A stretch of 64,000 nt of DNA, from the NCBI RefSeq assembly GCF_002788215.1, contig NZ_CP024845.1, positions 2,542,001 to 2,606,000 of the forward strand. The letters run 5' to 3'. The stretch's first letter is position 1; each line of letters opens with the position of its first letter. Position numbers and translations under genes: made by a program. Source of the stretch: Halohasta litchfieldiae (GTDB taxonomy: Archaea > Halobacteriota > Halobacteria > Halobacteriales > Haloferacaceae). Positions 13,690 through 46,699 of the stretch are shown piece by piece. The notes beneath the pieces were generated by a model. It saw nothing but the letters and a program-made list of their open reading frames with translations. It did no database searches and was not told the DNA's origin.

Positions 13690-14331
13690 ATGACTTCGGA
13701 CACCAGTTGTAAGATAGATGGTGTGATCGAGCGGTACGATCTCGAATCAGCCGACCCCATCTACGACTCGATCAATGAGGGGCTTCTTGCCCGCTGGACA
13801 GGCGCTGGCAAGCGAACGGCGATGGGGTATCGATCACTCACTGAGTGGTTCAACAAACGATTATTGCAGGTTGTGTATGACAAACACGGCCGTGAAACAC
13901 TCGGTGCAAGACTCGATAGCGACTATGAGATCCTCACAAGCGACGACGACCTCGTCGGTGAGGAAGTAACCGAAAGCTTGCGTGTCGACGGGATCGACAG
14001 TGATCGGCTTGAACGAGATCTGGTCTCGTGGGGGACAATGCGAACACATCTAAAAGAGTGTCTAGACGGCCACAAGGAACCGCAGACGGCAAGTACGAAC
14101 TGGGAACAAGAAAGTATCCGGAAAGCAACCGAGATCGCAGAGGAGAAAACGGAGTCGGCGCTTTCGGCACTCGCAAACAAAGGAACGCTCGCTGGTGGTG
14201 AGACCGCTGATGTCGACGTTCAAATCCAACTCAGTTGTCAGTCGTGTCCAACGCGAGTCCCTTTCGATGTCGCGCTGGAACGCGGGTACATCTGTGAAGA
14301 CCACAACACACAGCAAGTCTCTCGGAACTAA
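13690..14331 (+). CDS. RdfA-family protein (rod-determining-factor-like), copy 1
   Basis: A 213-residue protein of the haloarchaeal RdfA family, named for a gene needed for rod shape in Haloferax volcanii and normally encoded beside an SMC-related protein. Seen: an N-terminal conserved region with LARWTGAGKRTAMGYRSL and TEWFNKRLL, which matches MSLRDLADYFNRQLL in copy 2. A polar helical middle with WEQESIRKATEIAEEK follows, and a C-terminal Zn-binding-like part with CQSCPTRVPFD and YICEDH. The ATG sits just downstream of a TATA box. The next gene starts two bases after the stop. Molecular activity is not known; DNA binding or partner binding via the zinc site is inference. Confidence 0.75.
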   Translation: MTSDTSCKIDGVIERYDLESADPIYDSINEGLLARWTGAGKRTAMGYRSLTEWFNKRLLQVVYDKHGRETLGARLDSDYEILTSDDDLVGEEVTESLRVDGIDSDRLERDLVSWGTMRTHLKECLDGHKEPQTASTNWEQESIRKATEIAEEKTESALSALANKGTLAGGETADVDVQIQLSCQSCPTRVPFDVALERGYICEDHNTQQVSRN

Positions 14332-28605: not shown

Positions 28606-28887
28606 CCTTTTTTAGACAATACACCTATAAACATATGAGTTATATCGCAAGTATTGCAAAGATATACATAAAATTTTTTGTATGTTGGAGGAAGCGCACA
28701 TAAAGTTTTGATATGTAGGGATAAAAATCGTATTATGTGTTTTATTAATCCTAACTGTATCTCTGGTGTCACATCGGTTCCACTTGTTACTCGCATGGGT
28801 CGGTTTCTAAACGTGAACGATCCCGGTCACAGTTTGCCAGACACCAAGTTAACAATCGGATATAACGGAGACTCCCGGCAGTCGACC
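28606..28887. other. Intergenic region between receptor gene and Ggt-like gene
   Basis: About 280 bases. The left part (28606-28750) is AT-rich and holds the promoter of the leftward receptor-formamidase operon. Nothing else is seen. Confidence 0.5.
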
Positions 28888-30531
28888 TCAGTAGCCGATT
28901 GCCGCGCCGTCACCCCGTGGATCAGCGCCGCCTTCAAGTGTGCCGTCCTCGTGGAGCCGGATCGCCGCAGCATGGCCCATCGTGTCGTCGAAGCGGCGAG
29001 CCATCGCTACCGGCTGGCCCCGTCGCTGGAGTTCAGTGACCACGCCGTCCGGGATCCGTCCTTCCAGCGAGAGCGACCGGGATTCATCGCCCCACGTCCG
29101 GCCAAAGAGCCAGCGTGGGGCTTCGATGGCCTGCTGGACGTCGTAACCGAAGTCGACGATACGGGAGACGAGCGCGGCCTGCGTCTGGGGCTGGCCCTCC
29201 CCACCCATCGTTCCGTAGACGAGCCACGGTTTGCCGTCCCGCGTTAGCATCGAGGGAATCAACGTGTGGAACGTTCGCTTGCCGGGTTCGAGGCTGTTGA
29301 TATGATCCGCATCGAGCGAGAAGAACGAGCCGCGGTTTTGGGGGATGATCCCGGTGTCGCCAGCGATCATGCCACTGCCGAAGTCGAAATAAATCGACTG
29401 GATCATCGAGACCGCCAGCCCGTCGCTGTCGACCACCGAGAGATAGCAGGTGTCACCGCCGGGGTCCTGTGTCTGTGGCGTCACTCCATCGGGTGTCAGC
29501 CCCGGTTCGACGGCAGCCGGAAGCGAGCTGTCGGGTTCGATTAGCGTCCGGCGCTCGTCGAGATACGACGCCGAGAGCAACTGTTCGACTGGCATGTCAA
29601 CCGTCTCGGGATCGGTTACCCACGCATCGCGGTCCGCAAACGCGATCTTGACGGCTTCGGCCATATGATGGTAGTAGTCGGCGGTGCCGTCGCCCCACGA
29701 GTCGACATCGAAGCCATCGAGCAGGCCGAGGATCTGGAGTGCAGCGATTCCCTGTGTGTTCGGCGGGAACGAGTGGATAGTGACATTCCGGTAGTCGACA
29801 CTGAGTGGCTCGACCCACTCGGCATGGTACTGGCTCAAATCCGTCGCCATCAACGGCGACTCCTCGCCGATTCCCTCGCAGAACGCCTCGGCAAGCGGTC
29901 CCTCGTAGAATCCCTCACGGGGTCCCTGTTGGGCGATCAGTTCGAGCGAGTCAGCGAGCGCTGGCTGGCGGAGCAGGGTCCCAGTCTCGGGAGCCGATTC
30001 GTCCGTGAGAAACGTCTCGGCTGTGGTCGACTGCTCGCTGAGGACATCGACGTCAAGACTGATCCAGCGAGTGAAATCGGCGGTCATCGCGAATCCATCG
30101 CGGGCATGCGTAATAGCGTCCTCGAACAGCCGCTCCCACGGGAGATTGCCGTGTTTCTCGTGGGCAAGTCGCCAGCCGTCGACGGCCCCGGGTACGGTCA
30201 GTGCCGAGGCGCTACCACGCTCGGGAATCTCGTCGTACCCCAGCTCCTCGTAGTAGCTGCGGGTTGCTTGTTGGCCAGCGGGGCCACTGGCGTTGATCCC
30301 CTCGACGTCATCGTCACCGTCAGCGATCAGCCAGAAGCCGTCGCCGCCCAATCCAGCCATGTGTGGGTAGACCACACAGAGCGTCGCGTTGGTCGCGATG
30401 GCCGCGTCGACTGCCGAGCCACCGTTCCGAAGGATGTCGGTGCCCGTACTGCTCGCAAGGTAGTGGGGACTCGTCACGAGTCCGTGCTGTGCTCTCGTCG
30501 GGGGGCGCCCGGTTCGCGTTTGATCATACAT
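28888..30531 (-). CDS. Gamma-glutamyltransferase family protein
   Basis: A 547-residue Ntn-hydrolase of the Ggt family, normally self-cleaving before a Thr that becomes the nucleophile. Seen: SSTGTDILRNGGSAVDAAIA, PHMAGLGGDGFWLI, RGSASALTVPGAVDGW, the expected cleavage site around PGGDTCYLSVVDSDG (GDT, Thr nucleophile), and YFDFGSGMIAGDTGIIPQNR. No N-terminal signal peptide is visible, so it is likely cytoplasmic and may act on an acylated amine or a Ggt-like amide rather than glutathione. It is 89 bases downstream of the MFS gene on the same strand. Confidence 0.92.
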   Translation of the reverse strand: MYDQTRTGRPPTRAQHGLVTSPHYLASSTGTDILRNGGSAVDAAIATNATLCVVYPHMAGLGGDGFWLIADGDDDVEGINASGPAGQQATRSYYEELGYDEIPERGSASALTVPGAVDGWRLAHEKHGNLPWERLFEDAITHARDGFAMTADFTRWISLDVDVLSEQSTTAETFLTDESAPETGTLLRQPALADSLELIAQQGPREGFYEGPLAEAFCEGIGEESPLMATDLSQYHAEWVEPLSVDYRNVTIHSFPPNTQGIAALQILGLLDGFDVDSWGDGTADYYHHMAEAVKIAFADRDAWVTDPETVDMPVEQLLSASYLDERRTLIEPDSSLPAAVEPGLTPDGVTPQTQDPGGDTCYLSVVDSDGLAVSMIQSIYFDFGSGMIAGDTGIIPQNRGSFFSLDADHINSLEPGKRTFHTLIPSMLTRDGKPWLVYGTMGGEGQPQTQAALVSRIVDFGYDVQQAIEAPRWLFGRTWGDESRSLSLEGRIPDGVVTELQRRGQPVAMARRFDDTMGHAAAIRLHEDGTLEGGADPRGDGAAIGY

Positions 30532-30620
30532 GAATTGTCTCTGGTACTGTTAGGTCATGGTCTCTTCGGCTATACAATCGTCCGCCCGGTACGGAGTGGC
30601 CTTGGTCGCAACACCATCCA

Positions 30621-31880
30621 TCATGCGTCGACTGCCTGTTTCGGACTCCCGCGTCGACTCAGAACGAGGGCAAACACACACCCAAGAGCGGGGAACGCTG
30701 CCAGCGCGAGGAAGGTGCCGTCGACGGAGGTCACCGACAGCAGGTAGCCCGCGATGGCTGCTCCCGTCGCACCCACCCCGAACGACGTGAGGTACGTGTA
30801 GCCGTAGGAGAGCCCTCGTCCGTCCGGTGGGCTGTGATCGGCAATAGTCGCCTGATACAACGGTTGCAGGGCGAACAACAGGAATCCCAACAACGCGCTC
30901 ACGATGAGCAGCGTCGTGACGCCGCCTCTCGCTGCTGGCACGAAGGCGATGGTAACAGCCACGAGGCTTCCGAAGACGACTGCCAGCCCGGTCGTCGACG
31001 GGATCCGATCCGACAGTTTGCCGCCGACGTACTGGCCAGCGATCCCGATAGTCAACAGGGCGACGTAGAGATACGACGAGAGCGTGAACTCCTCGGCCAT
31101 CGGACTCCCGGGTTCGAACAGCTGAACGAAGTCGGTGACTGGCGGAAGGAACTGGTCGAACACTTCGGGGAGGAACGTCAACATCCCCCGGTAGAACAGC
31201 CCGTTCATCATCACGATGACCATCGCCAGGGCGAACCCTGCGGTAAACAGCGCGCGGCTACTCCCGATGAACTCCGACAGCGACATCGATTTCGACTCCT
31301 CGGTCCCACCGTCGACGCTGACGGCTGCGGTCTCGTCGAACTCGGTAGTCATGGCGTAGCCGATAGCGATCACTGCAGGGATCACCAACAGTCTGGTAAC
31401 GATCCGCCAGTCGAAGGTGATCAACAGCAGTGCCGTAATCAGTGGGCCGAAGGCGATGCCGATGTTCCCTGCCATGCCGTGGTAGGCAAATGCGGAGCCC
31501 CGGTTTTCGACACTGGTTGAGATGAGTGCGAGCCCGGAGGGGTGATACACACTTGCGGCGATCCCCCACGCAGCCAGCGCAATGGCGATGGTCACGATCC
31601 CGTCGGCGAAGCTCAGCAGAGCGAAAGAAAGTCCCATTCCACCGAGACAGGTCAAGATGAGCGTTCGCGATCCGAACCGATCAGCGAGGATGCCACCGGG
31701 AAGCGCGCCGATGCCGAACAGCGCGTAGCCTATCGACACCACGCCGCCCAGTATCGCCGTCGACACTGGAAACTCCATGAGCCAAATAACGACCAAAATT
31801 GGTATCGAGAGCTCGTAGGTATGGACGATTGCATGGGATATTCCGGTGAATAAGACTACCGAGCGGGAGTTATCGTTCAT
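30621..31880 (-). CDS. MFS transporter
   Basis: A 419-residue major facilitator with about 12 hydrophobic segments. The first has HAIVHTYELSIPILVVIWLM, and the loop 2-3 motif is GALPGGILADRFGSRTLI. A hydrophilic centre (DETAAVSVDGGTEESKS) separates the two halves, and a second loop motif GQYVGGKLSDRIPS starts the second half. It resembles the FSR-like and nucleobase/organic-anion permease branch. Located upstream of the Ggt-like enzyme and downstream of an IclR regulator, it probably imports the substrate of that enzyme. Confidence 0.9.
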   Translation of the reverse strand: MNDNSRSVVLFTGISHAIVHTYELSIPILVVIWLMEFPVSTAILGGVVSIGYALFGIGALPGGILADRFGSRTLILTCLGGMGLSFALLSFADGIVTIAIALAAWGIAASVYHPSGLALISTSVENRGSAFAYHGMAGNIGIAFGPLITALLLITFDWRIVTRLLVIPAVIAIGYAMTTEFDETAAVSVDGGTEESKSMSLSEFIGSSRALFTAGFALAMVIVMMNGLFYRGMLTFLPEVFDQFLPPVTDFVQLFEPGSPMAEEFTLSSYLYVALLTIGIAGQYVGGKLSDRIPSTTGLAVVFGSLVAVTIAFVPAARGGVTTLLIVSALLGFLLFALQPLYQATIADHSPPDGRGLSYGYTYLTSFGVGATGAAIAGYLLSVTSVDGTFLALAAFPALGCVFALVLSRRGSPKQAVDA

Positions 31881-31946
31881 CTTGTTGGATACAGTTGGAG
31901 ATCAACCCGCAGTATTTAATATTTTTGGGCTATCGTTCGACCAGAG

Positions 31947-32699
31947 CTACTCGATCCAGGAGTGTTTCTCGGTGGCAAAGGATCTGGTGTCGTCCCACCC
32001 CGAGCGAAATCGGGTTTCGATCCGTTCTCGGAGGCGAACGGTTGCCTCAGTAATCCGTTGTCGCTGTTGGTCCGACAGCTCCGTAGGGAGCAGTACCGCG
32101 AGACAGCCATAGCAATCGTCCGCATCGTCGACTATCGGGGCGGCGACACAGCGGTGTGTGATCTCATCGGAGAGTGGGCCGACGATGTACCCCTGCTCGT
32201 CGAGGGAGTCGCCCATCGCACCCGTGTCGTTGGAGACTGACTCACCGTGGTCGATGGTCTCGTTCTGCGCCGAGATCGCCTGCCCCGGAAGCGACGTCGA
32301 CCTCGGGATCGCTGTGCCGACGTCGACTGTGGTATCCGGAATATCGTGGGTGTCGACAACGACACAGTCGGAGCCGGCGGTTTCAACCAATAGAACGCTC
32401 GTCTCGAACTGATTGGCGAAGGCTGCAAGGAAGTCATGAGCAAACGTGTAGAGCCGAGAGTTAGACCGGGTCCGAAACCCAACGCGTAGTAGTTTCGGCG
32501 AGAGCTGGTAGCCGTCATCGGCTTTCCGAACGTAGCCGAGTTCCCGGAGTGTACTTAGGTGGTTGTGGATGATGCCCTTGCTCGTCTCCAGGTCCGCTGC
32601 GAGATCGGAGACACGTACCCTGTCCGTTCGGCTCAACTGTTCTATTATTGCAAACGTCTTGAGACTCGTTTTCACGGGCCGGTTCGCTTCGTAGGTCAT
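31947..32699 (-). CDS. IclR-family transcriptional regulator
   Basis: A 250-residue IclR regulator. The N-terminal winged helix is KTSLKTFAIIEQLSRTDRVR followed by LAADLETSKGIIHNHLSTL and GYVRKADDGYQLSPKLL. The C-terminal effector domain includes ETSVLLVETAGSDCVVVD, IPRSTSLPGQAISA and RCVAAPIVDDADDCYGCLAV. ATG 32699 is chosen; the frame extends to 33008 but that part is not IclR-like. It is on the same strand as and just upstream of the MFS and Ggt-like genes and may control them. Confidence 0.92.
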   Translation of the reverse strand: MTYEANRPVKTSLKTFAIIEQLSRTDRVRVSDLAADLETSKGIIHNHLSTLRELGYVRKADDGYQLSPKLLRVGFRTRSNSRLYTFAHDFLAAFANQFETSVLLVETAGSDCVVVDTHDIPDTTVDVGTAIPRSTSLPGQAISAQNETIDHGESVSNDTGAMGDSLDEQGYIVGPLSDEITHRCVAAPIVDDADDCYGCLAVLLPTELSDQQRQRITEATVRLRERIETRFRSGWDDTRSFATEKHSWIE

Positions 32700-32973
32700 G
32701 GTATCTCTTCGCACGGTGATTGGTATAATTATTGTGGGTCTCTCCTCACATCTGTGTTCTACACAGTAGAACAGTAGCACCACACCCACGAACCCTGTGA
32801 ACTGCGCGACGCAACTATTCCGCGGTTCGTCCAGAAAAACAGGAGCTGATGGTTGATTCACCCAATCAACTCTTGAAACGAACCGTGTGGGCTGGCAGAA
32901 ACCAGTTTCGAACAGCAGTCTGTTTGACAAATGTGTTTGCGAGGATAGAACACTACGATAATTCCAACGCGGA

Positions 32974-33870
32974 TTACAGTTGATTCGACTGCTCTGCTTT
33001 CGACACAATTCGTTTGGCCATCTGATACATCTCTTGATCGATTATTTTGCCATCGATGGCGGCGACATCGTTTGAGGCCGTCGACTCGTAGTTGTCGACG
33101 ATTCGGCGGGCCCGGTCGGCCTCCTCGGGGGTTGGCGAGAACACGCGGTTGACAGTCTCGATTTGGTCCGGATGGATGACGATTTTGCCGTCATAGCCGA
33201 GGGCGCTCTCAGCAGTACAGGCCTCCTGAAACCCTTGTGAATCGTGTGGGTCCGTATGTGGACCGCCGATAGCAAGCAACCCGGCGCTTGCGGCCGCCTG
33301 TGAGACCCGCGACAGCGGGTAGTGCCAGTAGTGTCCCGGATACTCCGCGGCACCGTGAGACGCACCGATAGAGGCCGCATAATCAGCCGGGCCAAAGATG
33401 AGCGCTTGGAGTCGCTCGGACGCATGGGCGATCTCCGTAATCGAGTCCATCCCCTCGGCCGTTTCGATCTGGGCGCTGAGTCCGATTGGGCCACTGTCAG
33501 CCCCCATGTTGGTCTCGACTGATGAGAGCAGTGTCGCAACCGTCTGGATGTCCGCTGGCCCGCTTACTTTTGGTACGATGAGCGTATCGATGGTCTCGCC
33601 GACAGCTTCGACGACCTCGATAATGTCGTTGTACCACCAGCGCGTGTCGGTCCCGTTGATCCGATAGCTGAGAACGTTGTCGGTCCACGAATGGGCCTCG
33701 ACGATGTCGATGAGTTCCGACCGTGCCGACTGCTTTTCGCCGGGTGCCAGCGAATCTTCGAGATCGAGGAATATTTCGTCGGCCGCACTCCCCATGGCCT
33801 CCCCGACAAGTCGGGACTCGTTGCCCGGGATCCCCAACTGCGACCGCCGAAGCGTGTTTTCGTTCAACAT
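32974..33870 (-). CDS. HpcH/HpaI aldolase/citrate lyase (CitE-like) family protein
   Basis: A 298-residue CitE-like lyase (malyl-CoA/citramalyl-CoA/malate-thioesterase family). Motifs: RRSQLGIPGNESRLV, ADEIFLDLEDSLAPGEK with the metal-binding Glu-Asp, SYRINGTDTRWWYND, LIVPKVSGPADI, QIETAEGMDSI with the second acidic ligand, LIFGPADYAASIG and the C-terminal GYDGKIVIHPDQIE. The ATG at 33870 gives the family N-terminus; the frame continues to 34197 without homology. It stands between an IclR regulator and the second rdfA gene. Confidence 0.9.
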   Translation of the reverse strand: MLNENTLRRSQLGIPGNESRLVGEAMGSAADEIFLDLEDSLAPGEKQSARSELIDIVEAHSWTDNVLSYRINGTDTRWWYNDIIEVVEAVGETIDTLIVPKVSGPADIQTVATLLSSVETNMGADSGPIGLSAQIETAEGMDSITEIAHASERLQALIFGPADYAASIGASHGAAEYPGHYWHYPLSRVSQAAASAGLLAIGGPHTDPHDSQGFQEACTAESALGYDGKIVIHPDQIETVNRVFSPTPEEADRARRIVDNYESTASNDVAAIDGKIIDQEMYQMAKRIVSKAEQSNQL

Positions 33871-34117
33871 ATCCGCTGTAGAGATGGAAGGAAAATAAAC
33901 GTACTGGCACCTGTGTGAGGATGAGTCCAATTCAGCGTGACCATCTTGGACACGGATTCCGAGTACCGATTTGTCGACCCTTCCTATGACGATATTAGAG
34001 TTGTCATAGATACCGTGCGATGAGTCGTCTTCGACTTCCACCCAACACTCTCCGTCGACCTGTTGTCGGCAATCTACGTCGGAAGCTACCGGACACTGTC
34101 CCCACCACGTCACAATC

Positions 34118-34128
34118 ATTTTTAAACA
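34118..34128 (+). promoter_or_regulatory. TATA-like box of the second rdfA-like gene
   Basis: The stretch catttttaaac centred about 26 bases before ATG 34149 has the position and composition of a haloarchaeal TATA element giving a nearly leaderless mRNA. The ttgtacac repeats seen upstream of the first rdfA copy are absent here. Confidence 0.45.
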
Positions 34129-34148
34129 CCTAGTCCAACCCATAGACA

Positions 34149-34769
34149 ATGGATACGACACCGAACGCTGCGTCCGGTCGAACCGGAAAAGTAGCACGTC
34201 TTCTCAGCGACGATACCATTGCAGAGGTCGGGGATGAGTTAGTAGAGCGGTGGACAGCCGAAGCCAACCGTATGAGTCTCCGCGACCTCGCGGACTACTT
34301 CAACAGGCAGTTGCTCGAAGCACGGCTCGACCAGCAGCGAATCGACGTGCTTCCCGGAGAAATCGAGAACATGTATCGCTTGCTTACTGACGACGAGGTG
34401 ACCAGCGGAACGCGGATTCAAGTGAAAAACCGACTGGGTGAATATGGGGTCGATACCGAGACTCTGGAGTCGGATTTCGTCAGTCGACAGGCGATCCACA
34501 CCTATCTAACGAAACACCGCCAGGAGAGCTACGACGAACCCGATCCCGATGAGATCGTCGACCGGCGGCTCGAAGAACTCCAACGACTCAACAGTCGACA
34601 GCAAGCCGTAACCGAACAGACGGTGTCGACACTCCAAAACAGGGACCGTCTCGATCTGGGAGAGTTTCAGGTGCTGTCTTCGGTTCAGATCCAGTGTACT
34701 GACTGTGGTCGACAGTTCGATCTGCCAACCTTGGTCGACCGTGGTCGCTGTCAGTGCGACACCTCCTGA
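34149..34769 (+). CDS. RdfA-family protein (rod-determining-factor-like), copy 2
   Basis: A 206-residue paralogue of the protein at 13690. Shared layout: GKVARLLSDDTIAEVGDELV, RWTAEANRMSLRDLADYFNR, LLTDDEVTSGTRIQVKNRL, a polar helix with DEIVDRRLEELQRLNSRQQA, and a C-terminal zinc-site-like QIQCTDCGRQFDLP with RGRCQC. The C-terminal site here has four Cys instead of the Cys/His mix of copy 1. Copy 2 looks closer to the usual rdfA form. The SMC-related gene follows after 137 bases, a looser spacing than in copy 1, with its own AT-rich upstream box. Confidence 0.78.
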   Translation: MDTTPNAASGRTGKVARLLSDDTIAEVGDELVERWTAEANRMSLRDLADYFNRQLLEARLDQQRIDVLPGEIENMYRLLTDDEVTSGTRIQVKNRLGEYGVDTETLESDFVSRQAIHTYLTKHRQESYDEPDPDEIVDRRLEELQRLNSRQQAVTEQTVSTLQNRDRLDLGEFQVLSSVQIQCTDCGRQFDLPTLVDRGRCQCDTS

Positions 34770-34906
34770 GACACACAACAGCTGTCTGAAAACGTAGCTG
34801 TGAGTCTCACGAGTAGAGTATGAAATAGGTATGACAGCCATAGAGACGTCATAATAGCGGACAGTAAACCAACCTTTTAATAAATTCATCCTGTAGGTGT
34901 TGAAGA

Positions 34907-36862
34907 ATGAGTCACACACGTCCCGATCAACAGGCTACTCAGATCGAGATCACCAACATCGGTGGGATCGATCAGTCATCGCTGACTCTGCACTCCGGTG
35001 TGAACGTTCTCGCTGGCAAAAACGCGACGAACCGGACTTCGTTTCTGCAGGCGCTCATGGCCGTCTGCGGAAGCGAGCAGGCGACACTCAAGGCGGATGC
35101 CGATCAGGGACAGGTCACACTTTCGAGCGGAGACCAGCAGTACACACGCACGATCAGCCGACGAAACGGTGTGGTTTCGTACGACGGAGAGCCGTATCTC
35201 GACGATCCGATTCTCGCCGACCTGTTTGCCTTCCTGCTTGAGGACAACGAGGCTCGTCAGGCGGTCGCACGCGGGGATAACCTCCGCGAAATACTGATGC
35301 GACCGGTCGACACGGCGGCAATCGAGCGGGAGATCGAGGAGCGCCAGTCCGAGCGTGAAGAGATCGACACACAGCTACAGCGGCTCGATTCGCTCGAAGA
35401 ACAGCTCCCGACGCTGGAGGCCGACCGGGACGCACTCGAAGACGAGATCGCCGAGAAGAAATCCGAGTTGGCTGCAAAGAACAGTCAAATCGAATCGCTG
35501 GATACCACCGTCGACGAGACCCGCGAACAGAAGGACGCATACGAATCGAAGCTCGATGCACTGAGTCAGGCACGGCAGGAGCGCCAGCGGATCGAGAGGC
35601 GGATCGACTCCGAACGGGAGAGTATCGAGAGTCTCCGAACTGATCGAAATGAGATCGCCGAACAGGTAGCCGAGTACGACGCAGTCCCTGAGTCACGGAT
35701 CTCGGAGATCGACGGGGAAGTTCAGCATCTCCGCGGACAGATTCAGCAGATCAATTCGACTGTCAGTGATCTGCAGTCCGTTATCCAGTTCAACGAGGAG
35801 TTCCTTGCGGAAGACCAGCCGTCATCTCTCCAGACCTTGGATGATGATCCTGAATCGTCTGGGAGTGAGATCACCGAGCAACTGGTGAGTGATTCGACCG
35901 AGGTCACCTGCTGGACCTGCGGCAGTAACGTTGAGACGACACAGATCGACTCGACGCTCGACGAACTCCGGGCGATACGGAACGACAAGATGGACCAGCG
36001 ACAGACGTTCCAAGACCAAGTCGACGAGTTGGAAGCCGAGAAATCATCACTTGAACAGGCACAACAGACCCATGATCGACTTCAGCAGCAACTTGCAGAC
36101 GTCGAGAGAGAAATCGATGATCGCACAGCGAAACTAGACGGCCTCGAAGCACAGCAAGCCGACATACAGACGCGGATTGACACACTCGAATCCGAGGTCG
36201 ACGCTTTCGAGAACGTCGAACAAAGCGAGATACTCGACCTTCAAAAGGAGACGAGTCGGATCGAAGTCGAAATCGAGCAGCTTACGGCTGATCTCGAGAG
36301 CATCGAGGCCGAAATTTCCGACATCGAATCGCAACTCGACGACCGCGACCATCTCGAAGCCCAGCGAGAGCAGCTCAGTTCGGAGCTTGCAGGGCTCAGA
36401 ACGAAGATCGAGGATCTTCAAACCGACGCCGTCGACGAGTTCAACTCCCATATGGATTCCCTCTTGGATCGACTCGGCTACGACAACCTCGAACGGATCT
36501 GGATCGAACGCACCGAAAAGGAAGTACGAGAGGGTCGACGCAAGATCAGCAAAGACCAGTTCGAGCTACACGTGGTCCGCAGCACTGACTCGGGGACGGT
36601 CTACGAGGACGTGGTCGACCATCTCAGCGAAAGTGAGCGGGAACTCACCGGCCTCGTGTTCGCGTTAGCTGGCTATCTCGTTCACGAGGTGTACGACCAC
36701 GTTCCGTTCATGCTGCTGGACTCCGTGGAGGCCATCGACGCCGACCGTATCGCACGGCTCGTCGACTACCTCGGTGGCTACTCCGACTACCTCGTCGTTG
36801 CACTGCTGGAAGAAGACGCACGAGCGCTCGACGACAGCTACCCCCGAATCGAATCGATCTAA
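34907..36862 (+). CDS. Archaea-specific SMC-related ATPase (Sph-like) with zinc hook, copy 2
   Basis: A 651-residue protein with N-terminal ATP-binding part, coiled coil, CWTCG hook (C335/C338), second coiled coil and C-terminal part. The Walker A is the family variant AGKNATNRTSFLQ (residues 36-48), which lacks the Lys directly before Ser/Thr; copy 1 has the more canonical QGKSS. The signature is LSESERELTG (from L573), and Walker B PFMLLDSVEAIDAD (D605) again has Ser after Asp. Coiled-coil text such as EREIEERQSEREEIDTQLQ fills most of both arms. About 10 percent longer than copy 1. Pairs with the RdfA-like gene directly upstream. Confidence 0.88.
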   Translation: MSHTRPDQQATQIEITNIGGIDQSSLTLHSGVNVLAGKNATNRTSFLQALMAVCGSEQATLKADADQGQVTLSSGDQQYTRTISRRNGVVSYDGEPYLDDPILADLFAFLLEDNEARQAVARGDNLREILMRPVDTAAIEREIEERQSEREEIDTQLQRLDSLEEQLPTLEADRDALEDEIAEKKSELAAKNSQIESLDTTVDETREQKDAYESKLDALSQARQERQRIERRIDSERESIESLRTDRNEIAEQVAEYDAVPESRISEIDGEVQHLRGQIQQINSTVSDLQSVIQFNEEFLAEDQPSSLQTLDDDPESSGSEITEQLVSDSTEVTCWTCGSNVETTQIDSTLDELRAIRNDKMDQRQTFQDQVDELEAEKSSLEQAQQTHDRLQQQLADVEREIDDRTAKLDGLEAQQADIQTRIDTLESEVDAFENVEQSEILDLQKETSRIEVEIEQLTADLESIEAEISDIESQLDDRDHLEAQREQLSSELAGLRTKIEDLQTDAVDEFNSHMDSLLDRLGYDNLERIWIERTEKEVREGRRKISKDQFELHVVRSTDSGTVYEDVVDHLSESERELTGLVFALAGYLVHEVYDHVPFMLLDSVEAIDADRIARLVDYLGGYSDYLVVALLEEDARALDDSYPRIESI

Positions 36863-36908
36863 CACCACTACTCGGTACTGTCGGCGATAGAACGACAAGT
36901 TCCTATTC

Positions 36909-36926
36909 GGGGTCGGCGGTGACCCC
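36909..36926. terminator. GC-rich hairpin after the SMC-related gene
   Basis: ggggtc and gacccc pair across a six-base loop, 46 bases beyond the stop. There is no clear T-run after it, so a terminator function is only possible. Confidence 0.3.
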
Positions 36927-36936
36927 GCCAAACCAA

Positions 36937-36953
36937 ATTCGGTATTGCCGAAT
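36937..36953. promoter_or_regulatory. Palindromic operator-like site (TTCGGTATTNCCGAA type), site A
   Basis: attcggtattgccgaat is a perfect 17-base palindrome around a five-base centre. Related sites lie at 37032 and 47581. It is in the gap between the SMC-related gene and the 3' end of an IclR gene, beside an AT-rich stretch. Confidence 0.5.
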
Positions 36954-37031
36954 AATATAGCAGTATTAATAATGTGAGATTCGAGCTTTATTTAAACGTG
37001 CAGAGAGAGGCGTCCGGTATGGATTGTTTCG

Positions 37032-37048
37032 GTTCGCAAATACCGAAC
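37032..37048. promoter_or_regulatory. Palindromic operator-like site, site B
   Basis: gttcgcaaataccgaac matches the complementary form of the palindrome at 47581 at about 15 of 17 positions. It lies 95 bases from site A and 25 bases before the IclR stop. Confidence 0.4.
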
Positions 37049-37072
37049 ACAGTTTCGAGGCGCTGCCGATTT

Positions 37073-37840
37073 TCAGTTTTCGGACTCTCGGAGCGTGTTC
37101 TGGATCTGGGTTGCCGAACTGATGACAAGTCCGGGAAGGTCTTGCTGAAATCGTTTGCCCGAGAGACTCTCCGTGTCAGTTAGCACATAGATTGCGCCTC
37201 GAACGGAGCCATCGGGAGCTTCAACGGCTGCCGCGATCCCTCGCATATCGGGATACCACTCCTCGCGGTCGACTGCGAGACCACGTGCGGTGACGGTTTG
37301 TAGCTCGGCATCCAGTTCTGCCCGGCTCGAATAGGACTGTTCGGTTCCGGCGTCGAACGCGTGGTCCGCAAGCAGGTCCTCACGGCGGGCCTCCGGCAGC
37401 GCCGCGAGAATCGCCTTCCCGGCGGCTGTGTGGAGCGGCAACTGGTCGCCAGCACCGACTCGCGGTGTCCCGGTGTTCGGACCGAGGCGATGATGGAGAC
37501 AGATGACGCTGTCGGCTTCAAGCACGACGATCCCGGCCGAACAGTTTGCGGCAGTCGACAGCTGTACGACCTCGTCGATCCCAGCAGTATAAATCGGGTA
37601 CTGCTGGCGTGCATATGATCCAATGTGCAGGAACCGAAGACTGACACGGTACTCGTGGTCGTCTTTGACGACGAAGCCGAGGCCGGTCAGCGTCTCCAGA
37701 TGGTTGTGGACCGAGCTTTTCGACCGACCGAGCGCCTCGGCAACCGCAGTGACACCACCGCCATCGAGGTCGATGAGCGTCTCGAGTATCCGAACACTCG
37801 TCTGTGTCGCCGCCACCGGGAGATCTGAGCCGTCTACCAT
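37073..37840 (-). CDS. IclR-family transcriptional regulator (sugar-acid cluster 1)
   Basis: A 255-residue IclR regulator: winged helix with TSVRILETLIDLDGGGVTAV, AEALGRSKSSVHNHLETLTG and DHEYRVSLRFLHIG. The effector domain has NCSAGIVVLEADSVICLHHR, LPLHTAAGKAILAALPE and the common RGLAVDREEWYPDMRGIAAA. ATG 37840 (MVDGSDLP) is preferred over 37864. The dehydratase gene lies directly upstream on the same strand (66 bases), so it is likely co-transcribed with it and regulates the cluster. Confidence 0.92.
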   Translation of the reverse strand: MVDGSDLPVAATQTSVRILETLIDLDGGGVTAVAEALGRSKSSVHNHLETLTGLGFVVKDDHEYRVSLRFLHIGSYARQQYPIYTAGIDEVVQLSTAANCSAGIVVLEADSVICLHHRLGPNTGTPRVGAGDQLPLHTAAGKAILAALPEARREDLLADHAFDAGTEQSYSSRAELDAELQTVTARGLAVDREEWYPDMRGIAAAVEAPDGSVRGAIYVLTDTESLSGKRFQQDLPGLVISSATQIQNTLRESEN

Positions 37841-37906
37841 ACAAAGAGGTCCCGACAACTGCATATAAATTTGTTCACTAATAGCGAATCAGGAGCTATC
37901 GAGAGC

Positions 37907-39058
37907 CTACCACTCGGCGATACTCCCGTCGTCGTGGTACCAGATCGGGTTCTGCCAGTTGATTTGGGACTGGGCCTGCTCCCGGACAACTGCTTCGTCG
38001 ACTTCGATTCCCAGACCGGGGCCCTCCGGGGGAGTGACGTAGCCATCGGCGAACTCGAAAACCCCAGGTTCGTCGAGATAGTCCAGTAGCTCGTTGTCGG
38101 CTGGCTGGTCGATATCGAGGCTCTGGGCCTGAACGATGCTGTTCGGTGTCACCATATCCAGTTGGATACAGGCTGCAAAGGAGATCGGTCCGAGCGGACA
38201 GTGCAGTGACAGCAGGATATCAGCACTCTCGGCACTGCTCGCGATCTTCCGGACCTCAGAGATGCCGCCCGCATGTGAGGGCGACGGCTGGATGATGTCG
38301 ACCACGCCGTCCTCGATCAGGGGTGCGAAATCCCACCGCGAGTAGAGCCGCTGGCCGATAGCCAGCGGAACCTTCGTGCTGGAGGCAATGTCACCGAGGG
38401 CGTCTGCGTGCTCCGGCAGCACGGGCTCCTCATAGAACATTGGATCGTACTGATCGAGTTCGGCGGCCACCCAGTCGGCCATCGCTTTCGTTACTCGGCC
38501 GCGGAAGTCGACGCCGATATCGATCTCGTCGCCAACTCGCTGTCGGACTGCTGCCAGTCGGTCACGGGCGTGGTGGACTGCCGCCGGTGAGTCGATCCGC
38601 CGGAACTGCGAGACCGCCGAGAGCTTCAGCGTTCGGTAGCCGTTGTCGACCGCGGCTTCGGCCGCGTCGGCGATCTCTTCTGGCGTGTCGCCGCCGATCC
38701 ACTGATAGACCCGAATCCGGTCGCGGGCCCGCCCGCCGAGCAGTTCGTACACCGGCGCGTCGTACCGTTTGCCCTTGATATCCCAGAGTGCCTGATCGAT
38801 GCCGCCGATTGCGCTCATCAAAACCGGCCCGCCACGGAAATGTCGCCCCCGGTACATCGCCTGCCAGTGGCGTTCGATCTCCATGGGGTTGTTGCCGATT
38901 AGATAGTTGTCGAGGATCTCCTCGACAGCAGCGCGAGTGGTCTTGGCATGGCCCTCAACGATGGGTTCGCCCCAGCCGCAGAGTCCCGTGTCTGTCTCCA
39001 GTTTGAGAAACAGCCACCGTGGGGGCACGGCAAACAGTTCGTAGCCTGTGATTTCCAT
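37907..39058 (-). CDS. Galactonate dehydratase-like enolase-superfamily enzyme, copy 1
   Basis: A 383-residue mandelate racemase/muconate lactonizing enzyme family dehydratase closest in pattern to D-galactonate dehydratase (DgoD). Seen: LKLETDTGLCGWGEPIVEGH, the substrate-loop RHFRGGPVLMSAIGGIDQAL, metal ligands in GVDFRGRV, MFYEEPVLPE and VPLAIGQRLYSRWDF, then IIQPSPSHAGGISE with the catalytic His, and LHCPLGPISFAACIQ. The enzyme would dehydrate an aldonic acid to a 2-keto-3-deoxy acid. A paralogue lies at 49124. The true sugar acid is not readable from sequence. Confidence 0.88.
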   Translation of the reverse strand: MEITGYELFAVPPRWLFLKLETDTGLCGWGEPIVEGHAKTTRAAVEEILDNYLIGNNPMEIERHWQAMYRGRHFRGGPVLMSAIGGIDQALWDIKGKRYDAPVYELLGGRARDRIRVYQWIGGDTPEEIADAAEAAVDNGYRTLKLSAVSQFRRIDSPAAVHHARDRLAAVRQRVGDEIDIGVDFRGRVTKAMADWVAAELDQYDPMFYEEPVLPEHADALGDIASSTKVPLAIGQRLYSRWDFAPLIEDGVVDIIQPSPSHAGGISEVRKIASSAESADILLSLHCPLGPISFAACIQLDMVTPNSIVQAQSLDIDQPADNELLDYLDEPGVFEFADGYVTPPEGPGLGIEVDEAVVREQAQSQINWQNPIWYHDDGSIAEW

Positions 39059-39159
39059 ACGCCGACAACGAAGCTATCGACGAAATAGGTTGTGCTGACC
39101 GAGAGTCGACTACTGTCGGTTGCCCGCCGACAGCGAGCGATCACGTCGGGTGTGTGGCG

Positions 39160-39327
39160 GTCAGGTGAGGCCTACAGGGATCCGTCAAGTGAGGCCTACA
39201 GGGATCCGTCAAGTGAGGCCTACAGGGATCCGTCAAGTGAGGCCTACAGGGATCCGTCAAGTGAGACCTACAGGGATCCGTCAAGTGAGACCTACAGGGA
39301 TCCGTCAAGTGAGGCCTACAGGGGTTC
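39160..39327. repeat. Seven tandem copies of a 24-base unit
   Basis: The unit gtcaagtgaggcctacaggg plus atcc repeats seven times without gaps. The first copy has gtcagg and the last ends gggttc. Copies 5 and 6 have an a in place of a g (gtgagacc). It lies in the 325-base gap between the dehydratase start and the 3' end of the kinase gene. The unit is a multiple of three and would read EAYRDPSS, but no gene uses it convincingly. Confidence 0.93.
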
Positions 39328-39383
39328 GTGTGATGGGGGTGCCTCTGTCTGGATCACAGGTCGACTGGCGTCGTGGTCTTGGT

Positions 39384-40901
39384 CTATTTGTCGCGGAGGC
39401 GGTTGAGCGTCTCGACGCGGTCGTCCCAGACATCGAACATCGCCTGATAGGCGTCGTGGTAGAACTCGTACCACTCGTCGTATTTGGGTACTTTCTCCGG
39501 GTCAGGTTCGAACCGATCCGTGGTCCGAACGGTCCGGTCGACCGCCGCTTCGAGGTCGTCGTACTCGCCGAGGGCGACGCCGGTCAGCAGAGCCGCACCT
39601 TTCGCACCGAGTTCGTCGCCCTCCGGGAGGACAATGGGCGCGTCAAGGCAATCGGAGAACATCTGACACCAAAAGTCGGAGCGGGAGCCGCCGCCAGCGA
39701 TCATGATCCGGTCGGACTCTACTTGGATGTGTTCGAACGAATCACGCATCGCCAAGGCGACGCCCTCGTAGATCGCCCGCATCATGTGTTTCTGGCCGTG
39801 TTCCGGCGACAGCCCGATGAACTGGGCGCGGGCACTCGTCTTGAGGAACGGGTTTCGCTCTCCCGAGGAGCTGAGATACGGATGGTACAGCAGTCCCTCG
39901 GAGCCGACCGGGAGCTCCTCAATCTCGCTCTCGACGTCAGCGAACTCCCGGTTGTTGGCGATGTTCTCGTAGGACCAGTCGATGTTGGGTGTGCCCGCCA
40001 TCGATGCCATCGACCGGAGATAAAACTCTTCGTCGACCGCGAGCGTAAAGCCCCGACCCAGTAGCTCTTCGGGTGGCTCGGTCAGCACGGTCTGGTTCAG
40101 CGAGGTCGTCCCCACAATGGAGGAACTCTCGCCGGGCTGGACCGCGCCGCTGCCGATGGCGTTGGCCGGGATGTCGAAGACGCCCGAAATCACGGGGGTC
40201 CCCTCGGGGAGCCCGGTCTCGACTGCGGCATCGCCAGTCACATCGCCGATGATCTCGGTCGGCGGCGCGAGCCGCGGCAGCAGGTCGTCGACACCATCGA
40301 AGTCGATCAACTCTTGCACCTCCTCGGAGTACTCCCGCGTTTCGATGTCGAGAAACGGCAACGTCGCGTCGCTATAGTCCATCGTTCGCTCGCCGGTGAG
40401 TTTGAACTTTAGCCAGTCCTTGCAGTAAAAGACCGTCTCGGCTTCCTCAAGGGTTTCGGGCTCGTTTTCGACCAGCCACTGCATGATCGGCAGGGTCACA
40501 CCGGGGAAGATGTCGGTGCCGGTGGCCTCCCGGATCACGTCGGCCTTCCCGTTGTCGACCCAGTCGTCGACGATTTCGGAGGCGCGACCGTCCGACCAGA
40601 GGATTGCATCCCGAACTGGATCGCCCTCCTCGTCGATGAGCCAACAGCCGTCACCTTGGCCGGTGATCCCGATGCCGAGGATCTCGTGGTCGTCCTCGAT
40701 ATCCTCGACGACCTCGCTGATGACGGTGGCCGTCTTCTTCCAGTTGGTGGTCATGTTCTGTACTTGCCACCCGGACTGGGGCGTTTCCACTGGGTTTTCG
40801 ATTGTTGCGATCTCGATCTGCTCGCCATCGAGATTGAATGCTGCGGCTTTCAGGTTAGAGGTGCCTGCGTCGACACCGATGAGTACTCGGCTCATGCGCA
40901 A
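39384..40901 (-). CDS. FGGY-family carbohydrate kinase
   Basis: A 505-residue FGGY kinase (glycerol/xylulo/fuculokinase superfamily). Seen: the phosphate-1 loop LIGVDAGTSNLKAAAFNLDG, the GIGITGQGDGCWLIDEEGD segment with the family catalytic Asp later in VISGVFDIPANAIGSGAV, the ATP-binding GTTSLNQTV and IMIAGGGSRSDFWCQMFSD, and GAKGAALLTGVALGEY. Specificity cannot be fixed. In this cluster phosphorylation of a ketose or a ketose-like acid before class II aldol cleavage is the natural guess. Confidence 0.9.
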   Translation of the reverse strand: MRMSRVLIGVDAGTSNLKAAAFNLDGEQIEIATIENPVETPQSGWQVQNMTTNWKKTATVISEVVEDIEDDHEILGIGITGQGDGCWLIDEEGDPVRDAILWSDGRASEIVDDWVDNGKADVIREATGTDIFPGVTLPIMQWLVENEPETLEEAETVFYCKDWLKFKLTGERTMDYSDATLPFLDIETREYSEEVQELIDFDGVDDLLPRLAPPTEIIGDVTGDAAVETGLPEGTPVISGVFDIPANAIGSGAVQPGESSSIVGTTSLNQTVLTEPPEELLGRGFTLAVDEEFYLRSMASMAGTPNIDWSYENIANNREFADVESEIEELPVGSEGLLYHPYLSSSGERNPFLKTSARAQFIGLSPEHGQKHMMRAIYEGVALAMRDSFEHIQVESDRIMIAGGGSRSDFWCQMFSDCLDAPIVLPEGDELGAKGAALLTGVALGEYDDLEAAVDRTVRTTDRFEPDPEKVPKYDEWYEFYHDAYQAMFDVWDDRVETLNRLRDK

Positions 40902-41070
40902 CTAGCAATGAACAACCCTGATATATAATTATATGTGGTTACTGTCTACTGGACATCAATTTTTGAATTGTTATTCGTTCAGTAGGTAGTCGACTGCTCT
41001 CGCAGCGATCATGACAGATAAAGACTGCATAGATTAATCATCCCCCTCCTCAAATGGGCATGTACGGACC

Positions 41071-42414
41071 ATGACAGACCAATCTGCCCAGCGGGTAGTC
41101 AGTGAGTTTGGCCAACGAATGCTTGCGGACGGACTCACGAAAGGTACCGGCGGCAACGTGAGCGTCAAAACCGACGACGGTAACGTCGCGATCAGTCCTT
41201 CGGGAATGGCCTACGACGAGATCGAACCCGACGACGTCCCAATCGTCGACGTCGACGGCACCCAAATCTCGGGCGACCGGAAACCCTCCAGCGAGTTCCG
41301 GATGCACACCGACATCCTTCGGGAGCGCGAGGACGTCGGTGCGGTCGTCCACAACCACTCGCCGTACGCCAGCACCTTCGCCAGCATCGGTGAGGCGGTC
41401 GGCCCCTCCCACTACCTCATCGCCTTCATCGGCGACGAGATCCCGGTCGCACCGTACGAAACCTATGGGACTGCCGAACTCGCCGAAGTTGCCCTCGAAA
41501 CATTGGGCGACGAGTACAACGCCTGCCTCCTCGAAAACCACGGCGTGCTTGCGACGGGACCCACCGCGGAGGCGGCCTACGAAGTCGCGCTGATGGTCGA
41601 GTACTGTGCCCGCGTCCACTACTACGCACTCTCTATCGGCGTGCCAAGTTTGCTCGACGATGCGGAGATCGACACCTTGCTTGACCGGTTTGCGAACTAC
41701 GGACAGAGCCAGTCGACTGACGACGAGGGAGCCGAGCCGGATACCGGTGTGAGCGTGTCGACCGACCGACTCACCGACCTACAATCCAACCGCGAGGCCG
41801 TCAGCGAGTTCGGTCGAAAGATGCTCCACCAAGGCCTGACCGAGGGCACTGGCGGCAACATCAGCTCCCAGAACGGTGATCTCGTGGCGATCACCCCATC
41901 GGGGATGCCATACGACGAGATCACCGCCGAGGACGTCTCGGTCGTCGACCTCCATGGCGAGCACATCGCTGGCAAGCGCAAGCCATCCAGCGAGTTTCGG
42001 ATGCACACCGACATCCTCCGGGAGCGCGACGATGTCGGCGCAGTGGTCCACAACCACTCGCCGTACGCCAGCGCCTTCGCCAGTCTCAACGAACCCATCG
42101 AGGCCTCCCACTACCTGATTGCCTTCGCGGGCGATCAGATCCCGGTCGCACCCTACGAGACCTATGGGACGGCCGAACTCGCCGAAGTCGCCCTCGAAAC
42201 CCTCGGCGACGAGTACAACGCCTGCCTCCTCGAAAACCACGGCGTCCTCGCGACCGGCGAGACTGTCGACGAAGCCTTCGAGGTCGCGCTGATGGTCGAA
42301 TACTGCGCCCGCATCCACTATCAGGCCCGCAACATCGGCGAACCGAACCTCCTGCCCAATGAGGAGATCGACACGCTGCTCGACCGCTTCGCGGACTACG
42401 GGCAAGACCACTGA
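41071..42414 (+). CDS. Tandem-duplicated class II aldolase (L-fuculose-phosphate aldolase-like)
   Basis: A 447-residue protein made of two full class II aldolase/adducin domains in tandem. Domain 1 (about 1-200) has zinc ligands H94, H96 and H157 and catalytic-type E75 (KPSSE, VVHNHSPYAS, LENHG). Domain 2 (about 231-447) has H317, H319, H380 and E298. The linker (202-230) is Ser/Asp/Glu-rich. The halves are nearly identical over long stretches (YETYGTAELAEVALETLGDE and the next 15 residues). Family members are single-domain tetramers of about 215 residues, like the copy at 50422. Both sites appear intact. It should cleave a sugar 1-phosphate to DHAP and an aldehyde. Confidence 0.93.
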   Translation: MTDQSAQRVVSEFGQRMLADGLTKGTGGNVSVKTDDGNVAISPSGMAYDEIEPDDVPIVDVDGTQISGDRKPSSEFRMHTDILREREDVGAVVHNHSPYASTFASIGEAVGPSHYLIAFIGDEIPVAPYETYGTAELAEVALETLGDEYNACLLENHGVLATGPTAEAAYEVALMVEYCARVHYYALSIGVPSLLDDAEIDTLLDRFANYGQSQSTDDEGAEPDTGVSVSTDRLTDLQSNREAVSEFGRKMLHQGLTEGTGGNISSQNGDLVAITPSGMPYDEITAEDVSVVDLHGEHIAGKRKPSSEFRMHTDILRERDDVGAVVHNHSPYASAFASLNEPIEASHYLIAFAGDQIPVAPYETYGTAELAEVALETLGDEYNACLLENHGVLATGETVDEAFEVALMVEYCARIHYQARNIGEPNLLPNEEIDTLLDRFADYGQDH

Positions 42415-42548
42415 ACGAACCACACACCCATCGCAACAACGCGTTGACCGGCAATCTGTGGGTTCCTCTCAGCCGCGGCTCTCGTCGCGAGTCGACACCG
42501 ATCCTGTTGCAGTGCCGCAACAATTATGATGACACTCTCTAACCTCGA

Positions 42549-44249
42549 ATGTACATGACTCACTCAGTCGTCGTTATCGGCGGCGGAGCGACCGGTACGG
42601 GCACCGCCCGCGACCTTGCGATGCGGGGGTTCGACGTAACGCTCGTCGAGCGCGGGAACCTCACCGAGGGCACCACCGGTCGCACCCACGGCCACCTCCA
42701 CAGCGGGGGTCGCTACGCCGTCAGCGATCAGGAAAGCGCGGTCGACTGTATGGAAGAAAATAGGGTTCTCCACCGGATCGCCGGCCACTGTATCGAAGAC
42801 ACCGGTGGTCTCTTTGTCCAACTCGAAGGCGACTCCGACGAGTATTTCCAGCAGAAACTGGAGGGCTGTGCGGAGTGCGACATTCCGACCGAGGTTATTT
42901 CGGGTGAGGAAGCCCGCAGACAGGAGCCACACCTCACAAAACGTGTCAAGCGTGCCATCCGCGTGCCCGACGGAGCCATCGACCCTTTCCGTCTCTGTGT
43001 GGCCAACGCCGCCGACGCCGTCGACCACGGCGCACGGGTCGAAACCCACGCCGAAGTGGTCGACCTCGTCGTCGAAGACGGCCGGGTCACCGGCGTCGAA
43101 ATTGAGCGGCAGGGTCCGAACTACCTCGGGGAGGGCAGCGAGGGCCAGCGAGAGACCATCGCGGCCGACTACGTCCTCAGCGCGACCGGCGCGTGGGCGA
43201 GCCAGATCGCCGAAATGGCGGATGTCGACCTCGAAATGGCGATCTCGAAGGGCGCGATGGTCGTCACCAACGTCCGGCAGATCGACACCGTGATCAACCG
43301 CTGTCTGCCCAAGGGAGAGGGCGATACGATCATCCCGCACGAAACCACCGTCCTGCTCGGGGCGAACGACGACCCGGTCGACGATCCCGATGACTATCCC
43401 GAAGAACAGTGGGAGGTCGACCTGATGATCGACCTCGCAAGCGAGATGGTGCCGATCACCGCCGAGGCCCGCATGATCCGGGCCTACTGGGGCGTCAGAC
43501 CGCTGTACGACCCCGATCCCGAGTCGACCAAAGAATCCGGCGACGTAACCCGGAACTACTTCGTCCTCGATCACGCCGACCGCGACGGTATCGAGGGATT
43601 CAGCTCGATTGTTGGCGGCAAACTCACGACCTACCGGGAGATGGCCGAATCCGCGACTGACCACGTCTGTGAGGTGTTGGGTGTCGACGCCGAGTGTCGA
43701 ACCCACGAAGAACCACTCCCGGGAAGTAGCGATATCTCGGTGCTCGAAGACCAGATGGACGATTTCGGGCTTCGGTCACCGATTGCCCGCCGAAGCAAAC
43801 AGCGTCTCGGCGACCGTGCAGAGGAAGTCCTCGATACCGATGGACCGAACCCCACCGTTTGCGAGTGCGAAGCCGTCACCCGCGCGGAGATCCAGGACGC
43901 CATCGACGGCGTGGGCGCGGACCCCAACGGGATTCGGCTTCGGACCCGCGCCTCGATGGGTAACTGTCAGGGCGGGCTCTGTTCGCACCGGATCAGTGCG
44001 GAGATCTATCCGAAACACGACGCGGTCGACGCCCGCGACGCCCTCGACGAACTGTATCAAGAGCGCTGGAAAGGCCAGCGCCACACGCTGTGGGGTCGAC
44101 AACTCTCTCAAGCGATGCTCAATCATCTGTTACACGCAACGACGATGAACCACGACGCCGACCCCGCGGTCGGTGGCCCGAGCGTCGACTACGACGCCTT
44201 CGACAGTGGTCGCACCGAACCGATCAGGGAGGAGAGCCATGGCCATTGA
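42549..44249 (+). CDS. glpA: Anaerobic-type glycerol-3-phosphate dehydrogenase subunit A
   Basis: A 566-residue GlpA-type FAD protein, oxidising glycerol 3-phosphate to DHAP. Seen: the N-terminal dinucleotide fold [75 protein letters not shown], and a C-terminal BFD-like [2Fe-2S] domain with [15 protein letters not shown] and [15 protein letters not shown] 42549 is followed by a second ATG at 42555; either is possible. The end overlaps glpB by 11 bases. Confidence 0.93.
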
Positions 44250-45612: not shown

Positions 45613-45720
45613 CGACGACAGCTGTCGACGGACGAGTATCGAGTCGACTGACAACTTTTATGTTCTGATTATAGAGAAAATACGAACACTTATACTACAT
45701 TGAAATAATCTACAACTTGC

Positions 45721-46167: not shown

Positions 46168-46204
46168 ACCCGGAACTCCTCCCGTGTCGACTATTTTTTA
46201 CGGA

Positions 46205-46247
46205 GAATCAAGGAGAAAGCCTCGCCGTTCACGGCGGGGAGGATGTC
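46205..46247 (+). repeat. TnpB-type element right-end relic
   Basis: The stretch gaatcaaggagaaagcctcg followed by ccgttcacggcggggaggatgtca has the conserved right-end scaffold features of haloarchaeal TnpB elements: a caaggag box, a GC hairpin (ctcgccg/cggcggg) and the terminal ggaggatgtca. No tnpB is present beside it, so only the end remains. Confidence 0.5.
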
Positions 46248-46305
46248 AAAGTGCCCGGTTCAGGTCTGCGCCCGGTTTAGCACAGTGCCCGGTATAGCGC
46301 ACGAC

Positions 46306-46530: not shown

Positions 46531-46699
46531 CTACAGCTTTGAGCCGGGTATAAATAAATATTTTGCACATGCAAAATAGTGTAAATTAACCCCATGAACG
46601 ATCATCCACGACACCGAAGGCGCAGTCGACAGCCAGCATGCCGACCAACGAGGCTGAGACAGGCGGTAGGTTTAGGCAACGGGCCGAGAATGTAGGTGT

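Follow-up and report, generated by a model that had tools for sequence, protein, structure and literature searches.

The window analysed here is the whole stretch of 64,000 nucleotides (G000:C1:2542001-2606000) from the 3.33-Mb single-contig genome of Halohasta litchfieldiae. Two side-by-side open reading frames were verified on its forward strand, at 34149-34769 (206 aa) and 34907-36862 (651 aa), and a related pair, hereafter copy 1, lies upstream of them. The genes considered are the following:

13690..14331, + strand: RdfA-family protein, copy 1 (Cys3His); PF21811, 154.2 bits
14334..16115, + strand: ASRP/Sph protein, copy 1 (GKS P-loop); NF045487, 457 bits
31947..32699, - strand: flanking IclR-like regulator (HTH_IclR); PF09339, 34.5 bits
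32974..33873, - strand: HpcH/HpaI aldolase family protein, left neighbour; PF03328, 133.4 bits
34149..34769, + strand: RdfA-family protein, copy 2 (206 aa); PF21811, 230.9 bits
34907..36862, + strand: ASRP/Sph SMC-like protein, copy 2 (651 aa); NF045487, 693.6 bits
37073..37864, - strand: IclR regulator, right neighbour; PF01614, 72.7 bits, and PF09339, 42.9 bits

The match of RdfA copy 2 to PF21811 lies far above the cut-off of 27 bits and is near full length (profile positions 2-195 of 195), and that of ASRP copy 2 to NF045487 covers the entire profile (1-593 of 593; equivalog cut-off, 300 bits). By these matches, the copy 2 pair is a member of the known haloarchaeal family of RdfA and Sph (ASRP) proteins, in which 78% of the RdfA and 84% of the SMC-like genes are adjacent and of which Haloferax volcanii has four RdfA paralogues (PMC10869688). 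Both family models fit copy 2 much better than copy 1 (693.6 and 230.9 versus 457 and 154.2 bits). The RdfA/SMC-related pair at 34149-36862 that the first-pass annotation had proposed as the second near copy 1 is therefore real, and the genome holds a third besides (G000:C1:26707-29303; L221:4702-7349), whose ATPase is of the same N-R type as copy 2. Identity between copies 1 and 2 is 28% for the ASRPs and 27% for the RdfAs. The best named relative of ASRP copy 2 is from Halohasta litorea (77% identity), and orthologues with the same P-loop motif are found in two Halohasta genomes at 76-77% protein identity. Copy 1 forms a tight operon, with a gap of 2 bp between rdfA and asrp; TnpB-like (OrfB/IS605) and DDE transposase genes (10889-13263) lie closely upstream of it.

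An altered ATPase core is the norm of the copy 2 lineage

Four motifs were located in ASRP copy 2:

35015..35041, + strand: P-loop GKNATNRTS, residues 37-45, with Asn42 and Arg43 instead of Gly-Lys (motif and lineage alignment)
35909..35923, + strand: zinc hook CWTCG, residues 335-339 (sequence)
36623..36643, + strand: ABC signature LSESERE (sequence and lineage alignment)
36707..36739, + strand: Walker B/D-loop region MLLDSVEAIDA, with Ser instead of Glu (sequence and lineage alignment)

The P-loop departs from the SMC-type Walker A motif GxxxxGK[ST], with Asn at the Gly and Arg at the Lys position, and the Walker B Asp is followed by Ser (LLDS) at the place of the catalytic Glu, as in 84/84 sequences of its clade (the NR clade). 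The zinc hook expected at the coiled-coil apex of an ASRP is present. The P-loop of copy 1 reads AANWQGKSS, and Walker B D-S and the CWTCG hook are common to both copies. Thus, the residues had been read correctly in the first-pass annotation: copy 2 lacks the Lys before Ser and copy 1 has QGKSS, both carry Ser for the Walker B Glu, and both keep the hook. Its description of copy 2 as the diverged ATPase has to be inverted, since N-R is found in 83/84 members of the lineage (R 100%, N 99%) and it is copy 1 that belongs to a minority lineage.

Among 182 distinct ASRP sequences, a sample deliberately enriched for relatives of copy 1, the P-loop Gly-Lys positions read N-R in 83, N-K in 17, H-R in one and G-K in 81, eight of the last being non-haloarchaeal. 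In the NR clade (84 sequences), N39, A40, T41, R43 and S45 are present in 100% and N42 and T44 in 99%, while Walker B D and S and an Ala that replaces the Thr of the H-loop region are invariant. The GK-type haloarchaeal ASRPs (72 sequences) have G-K-S/T in all cases, with Gly at the Walker B Glu position in 81% and Glu in only about 4%; in the eight non-haloarchaeal ASRPs, GK is found in 100% and DE in 88%. These alignments show that most haloarchaeal Sph proteins have lost the catalytic Glu, and the copy 2 lineage has also swapped the P-loop Gly-Lys; its motif speaks of conservation, not decay. Copy 2 as the odd one out is ruled out, since the NR motif is the norm of its large lineage. With even sampling, roughly a sixth of the haloarchaeal ASRP genes scored GK-like (hand count), and at least 80 of 391 genomes contain a clade I (GK) copy (hand count). 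Note that the class-wide searches scored no more than three candidates per genome, so that the copy numbers are minimum values.

An ancient split shared by both partners of the pair

Trees were inferred with IQ-TREE from 81 sequences and, after removal of the Walker A and B columns, from 54 sequences. Both trees recovered three solid haloarchaeal groups, with these support values in the one lacking the motif columns: GK (clade I; 100/100), NR (100/93) and NK (100/100). The position of NK shifts between the two trees, so that the Asn may have originated once or twice. Clade I includes copy 1 and Sph1 of Halobacterium salinarum (L128; its close relative L127 is also in the tree), and the NR lineage includes copy 2, the third copy (L002/L221) and a copy from a Haloferax gibbonsii plasmid. 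Copy 2 falls outside the clade with H. salinarum Sph1; H. volcanii Sph2-4 are not among the placed sequences. Our trees agree with a published one that sets Sph1 apart from Sph2-4 (PMC11276520). Copy 1 is placed in the Sph1 lineage, and copy 2 in the larger of the two ancient lineages, which most likely corresponds to Sph2-4 of the published tree. The trees bear out the earlier view of old paralogues rather than a recent duplication: the copies fall into two separate clades, each spanning many genera, and the RdfA proteins split likewise. An origin of copy 2 as a recent duplicate of copy 1 is ruled out by these separate clades and the low identity given above.

The partner proteins differ in their zinc ligands, as the first-pass annotation had also noted:

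34695..34757, + strand: zinc site CxxC...CxC (C183, C186, C201, C203) of RdfA copy 2 (sequence; Cys4 in 78/78 scorable N[RK] partners)

In RdfA copy 1 the ligands are CxxC...CxxH. Across the sample, all 78 scorable RdfA partners of N[RK] ATPases are of the Cys4 type and 70/71 partners of GK ATPases are Cys3His, and a single ligand change is needed on the RdfA tree. Since the zinc site follows the ATPase split almost perfectly, the pairs diverged anciently as units, and this covariation suggests that copies 1 and 2 may form separate complexes. The sole exception to the rule (L140, genome G173) is a long-branch, very divergent pair in which a GK ATPase with hook CLLCG accompanies a Cys4 RdfA.

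RdfA-like genes were also found directly downstream of ASRP genes in three genomes of the same phylum outside the haloarchaea (L182, L184 and L186, which we take as Methanosarcinia from the published occurrence of ASRPs). PF21811 scores are 35.4 bits in L182 and 26.3 bits, barely under the cut-off, in L184. The RdfA-ASRP pairing thus seems, from these neighbours, to predate the haloarchaea.

AlphaFold models built from three sequences reached a pLDDT of 63.8 for RdfA and 64.4 for the ASRP (head below 50). A fold search with the RdfA model gave zero matches at E under 1, and a PDB sequence search with the ASRP gave coiled-coil matches only. Given the poor models and the lack of a fold match, RdfA and Sph may, but need not, be in direct contact, and we advance neither a kleisin nor a KITE assignment.

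A palindrome marks the promoters of the NR lineage

A separate TATA-like box precedes each of the two copy 2 genes, and these boxes are conserved in two more Halohasta genomes. A palindrome also lies upstream of each gene:

33985..34008, no strand: palindrome TATGAC-N12-GTCATA upstream of rdfA, predicted IclR-type operator (exact match; conserved in Halohasta litorea)
34118..34125, + strand: ATTTTTAA, conserved TATA-like element some 27 nt upstream of the rdfA start (no differences among three Halohasta loci)
34830..34853, no strand: palindrome TATGAC-N12-GTCATA upstream of asrp, predicted IclR-type operator (conserved in L094, L131 and L223)
34874..34883, + strand: CTTTTAATA, conserved TATA-like element some 27 nt upstream of the asrp start (sequence conservation)

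The exact palindrome occurs three times in the 3.33-Mb genome, always inside the window, and is conserved in H. litorea, in one congener and in one genome of another genus. The third occurrence (47709-47732) is without the central TA and lies in a gene-poor gap of 770 bp between ThuA-like and IclR genes, a region with a further IclR-type site at 48001-48022. Another IclR protein of the window is encoded at 48182-48841. The promoters of the third pair of the genome (G000:C1:26707-29303) are without a palindrome under the strict pattern.

A motif search with no pattern set beforehand in the promoters of the other NR loci returned TTACAC-N8-GTGTAA in 9/47, GTTACA-N10-TGTAAC in 8/47 and ATAACA-N10-TGTTAT in 7/47, against a shuffle maximum of 3-5. 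A weight matrix merges these variants into a 22-bp palindrome, RTWACA-N4-TA-N4-TGTWAY. Because NR loci served to train the matrix, the meaningful controls are the GK set, the shuffled set and the genome scan. With a cut-off of 17 bits, the NR loci (465 kb) contained 89 sites, the GK loci (392 kb) contained 3, and shuffled NR sequence, 1.39 Mb in all, contained none; the palindrome is present in 68/84 NR loci (38/47 after thinning) versus 4/81 GK loci, the latter including eight outgroup loci. In 18 genomes, the consensus gave 0-38 sites each and the reversed-pattern control 0-1. In many cases the centre of the palindrome is 55-66 bp upstream of the asrp start, immediately before the place where a BRE/TATA is expected. 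About 15/89 are located 3' of asrp, an unusual position for an operator.

Among the sites listed in four genomes, 14/24 palindromes have an IclR gene no more than 1.5 kb away, where 0.15 would be expected. In one of them (G026), 7/7 listed palindromes are beside IclR genes, none on its ASRP-bearing contig. Conversely, in evenly drawn genomes, 11/39 ASRP genes have an IclR gene within 3 kb, compared to 0.39 expected (P about 6e-14, uncorrected for kinship; nine genomes). The difference in IclR adjacency between NR and GK loci (Fisher, 1e-4 raw) was lost when near-copies were thinned (0.18-0.70), so we claim IclR adjacency only relative to the genomic background, and lineage specificity, on these counts, only for the palindrome. 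Since the sites adjoin IclR genes elsewhere, and since haloarchaeal IclR regulators activate sugar catabolism (PMC11519228), the palindrome RTWACA-N4-TA-N4-TGTWAY is probably an IclR operator. The neighbouring IclR protein finds no support as the single cognate regulator, as the IclR neighbours are not orthologous among orthologous Halohasta pairs that share a palindrome variant. No report of IclR and RdfA together was found in the open-access literature searched; the palindrome, the IclR-ASRP proximity and the opposite-orientation pair described below are new here.

The pair is exchanged as a cassette

Comparison with a congeneric genome (G148) showed the window to be collinear from 28883 to 47389, at about 73-87% DNA identity, except for one segment:

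33878..37085, no strand: segment of the collinear locus, replaced in G148 by an opposite-orientation clade I pair (genome comparison)

In G148, this slot contains a clade I RdfA-ASRP pair, flanked by the same HpcH/HpaI (77% protein identity) and IclR (74%) genes. In H. litorea and G283, the match to copy 2 is limited to the pair itself (window 34135-36865) and the surroundings differ. These comparisons indicate that rdfA-sph pairs move or get replaced as units of about 2.7-3.2 kb. The presence of a copy-1-type pair in the syntenic copy 2 slot argues for partly interchangeable roles. Viral carriage of the ASRPs was ruled against, since no relative turned up when viral contigs were scanned with their alignment. 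Elsewhere in the neighbourhood, an in-frame short tandem repeat (VRPTGIRQ repeated) occupies 39120-39300, between mandelate-racemase-like and FGGY kinase genes. On Haloferax plasmids, conserved-hypothetical genes lie 3' of rdfA-sph pairs (L203:4825-6211 and L205:6566-9449).

Discussion

The lineage-wide Arg P-loop, the loss of the Walker B Glu, the zinc co-divergence, the palindromes and the exchange of pairs can all be read from the sequences compared here. The explanation that we consider probable as a whole is that RdfA and Sph would act together in one complex, in which Sph would dimerise via its zinc hook and its head would stay either nucleotide-bound and non-hydrolysing or nucleotide-free. 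Instead of cycling ATP as a motor does, such a complex could have a structural role in shape or genome handling, that of a clamp or filament. A catabolite regulator of the IclR family would switch the expression of copy 2, so that cell shape or chromosome handling would follow the nutrient supply. In H. volcanii, which is not a Halohasta, rods need RdfA and Sph3 (PMC10869688), deletion of Sph2 gives rods, the Sph2 and Sph3 deletions are opposite in shape, and all four Sph proteins matter in gene conversion while their shape phenotypes differ (PMC11276520). Sph3 rises 17.7-fold under iron starvation (PMC11349517), a result that likewise comes from another organism.

The counterpoint to a non-hydrolysing head is that a P-loop with Arg and Thr could retain ATP binding or a slow turnover. 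Taken further, copy 2 would be an active ATPase with an unusual chemistry, in which N-A-T-N-R-T-S binds ATP via the Arg and the downstream Glu of DSxEAID is catalytic. We regard this as unlikely: conservation of both motif and Glu reaches 99-100% across the NR clade, as in a site under selection, but the P-loop Lys, the Walker B Glu and the Thr of the H-loop region are all replaced jointly, and the downstream Glu position is mostly Gly in the NK clade and in clade I. The same conservation bears on the opposite extreme, that copy 2 is a decaying, non-functional duplicate. The loss of canonical ATPase residues is what decay would produce, yet the key residues are invariant across many genera, and the two Halohasta orthologues, with the motif, promoters and palindromes kept, contradict it; we therefore give decay almost no weight.

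The match of RdfA zinc type to ATPase lineage, the opposite shape phenotypes of the H. volcanii Sph2 and Sph3 deletions (PMC11276520) and the presence of another ASRP in about 95% of the genomes bearing clade I (hand count) would fit the proposal of the first-pass annotation, in which copies 1 and 2 form antagonistic or parallel systems, each with a complex of its own. However, those opposite phenotypes both fall within one published lineage, and in G148 a clade I pair fills the copy 2 slot between the same regulators, as exchangeable modules would; such a division seems possible but rather doubtful. The palindromes could also be parS-like loading sites bound by RdfA-Sph itself and not IclR operators, which would fit their occurrence on both sides of the pair, some of them 3', and their persistence where the IclR neighbour differs. 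We judge this quite improbable, since sites away from ASRP genes mostly adjoin IclR genes, as in G026, and the frequent spacing before asrp, upstream of the BRE/TATA, is that expected of an activator. Returning to the RdfA-Sph complex with a non-hydrolysing head and IclR switching, it may be, and we advance this only tentatively from the sequence comparisons, that the commoner Sph lineage consists of conserved pseudo-ATPases: an SMC motor made into a nutrient-switched structural module, exchanged with its matched RdfA as an IclR-controlled cassette, and tying cell shape or genome handling directly to carbon supply.

RdfA and Sph govern motility and the choice between rod and disk shape, and they play a part in gene conversion. 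IclR-type sites offer a reason for the presence of several pairs per genome: each coexisting pair may be switched on by a different nutrient. A change in the ATPase core that matches a zinc change in the partner provides a direct test of whether Sph needs ATP, and the swapped cassette of G148 amounts to a natural complementation experiment.

The closest described system is RdfA-Sph3 of H. volcanii (HVO_2174-HVO_2175; PMC10869688), which shares with copy 2 the adjacent rdfA and sph genes, the PF21811 and ASRP families and the zinc-hook coiled coil. Both are most likely of the same Sph2-4 lineage, although we do not claim orthology; a search for a HalOD1 (DdfA) neighbour that would pinpoint the Haloferax Sph3 did not identify it. 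Unlike RdfA-Sph3, copy 2 carries IclR-type palindromes and a TATA-like promoter for each of its two genes, and no DdfA neighbour was seen. In the IclR regulons XacR, GacR, RhcR and MscR (PMC11519228), IclR genes and palindromic promoter sites occur in catabolic clusters, as they do here, although rdfA-sph is not a reported target in the open-access literature searched. Sph1 (Hp71) of H. salinarum, on pNRC200, is an ASRP whose gene follows an rdfA and has an IclR gene in its vicinity, as in copy 2, but it belongs to clade I, with copy 1, and has a GKSS P-loop and an LDG Walker B. More distantly, the ASRPs of Methanosarcinia and other Halobacteriota and the coalescin ClsN of Sulfolobus (PMC9389158) are of the same family, with a zinc hook reported for most; unlike copy 2, the non-haloarchaeal ASRPs sampled here, a set without ClsN, keep GKT/S and mostly DE.
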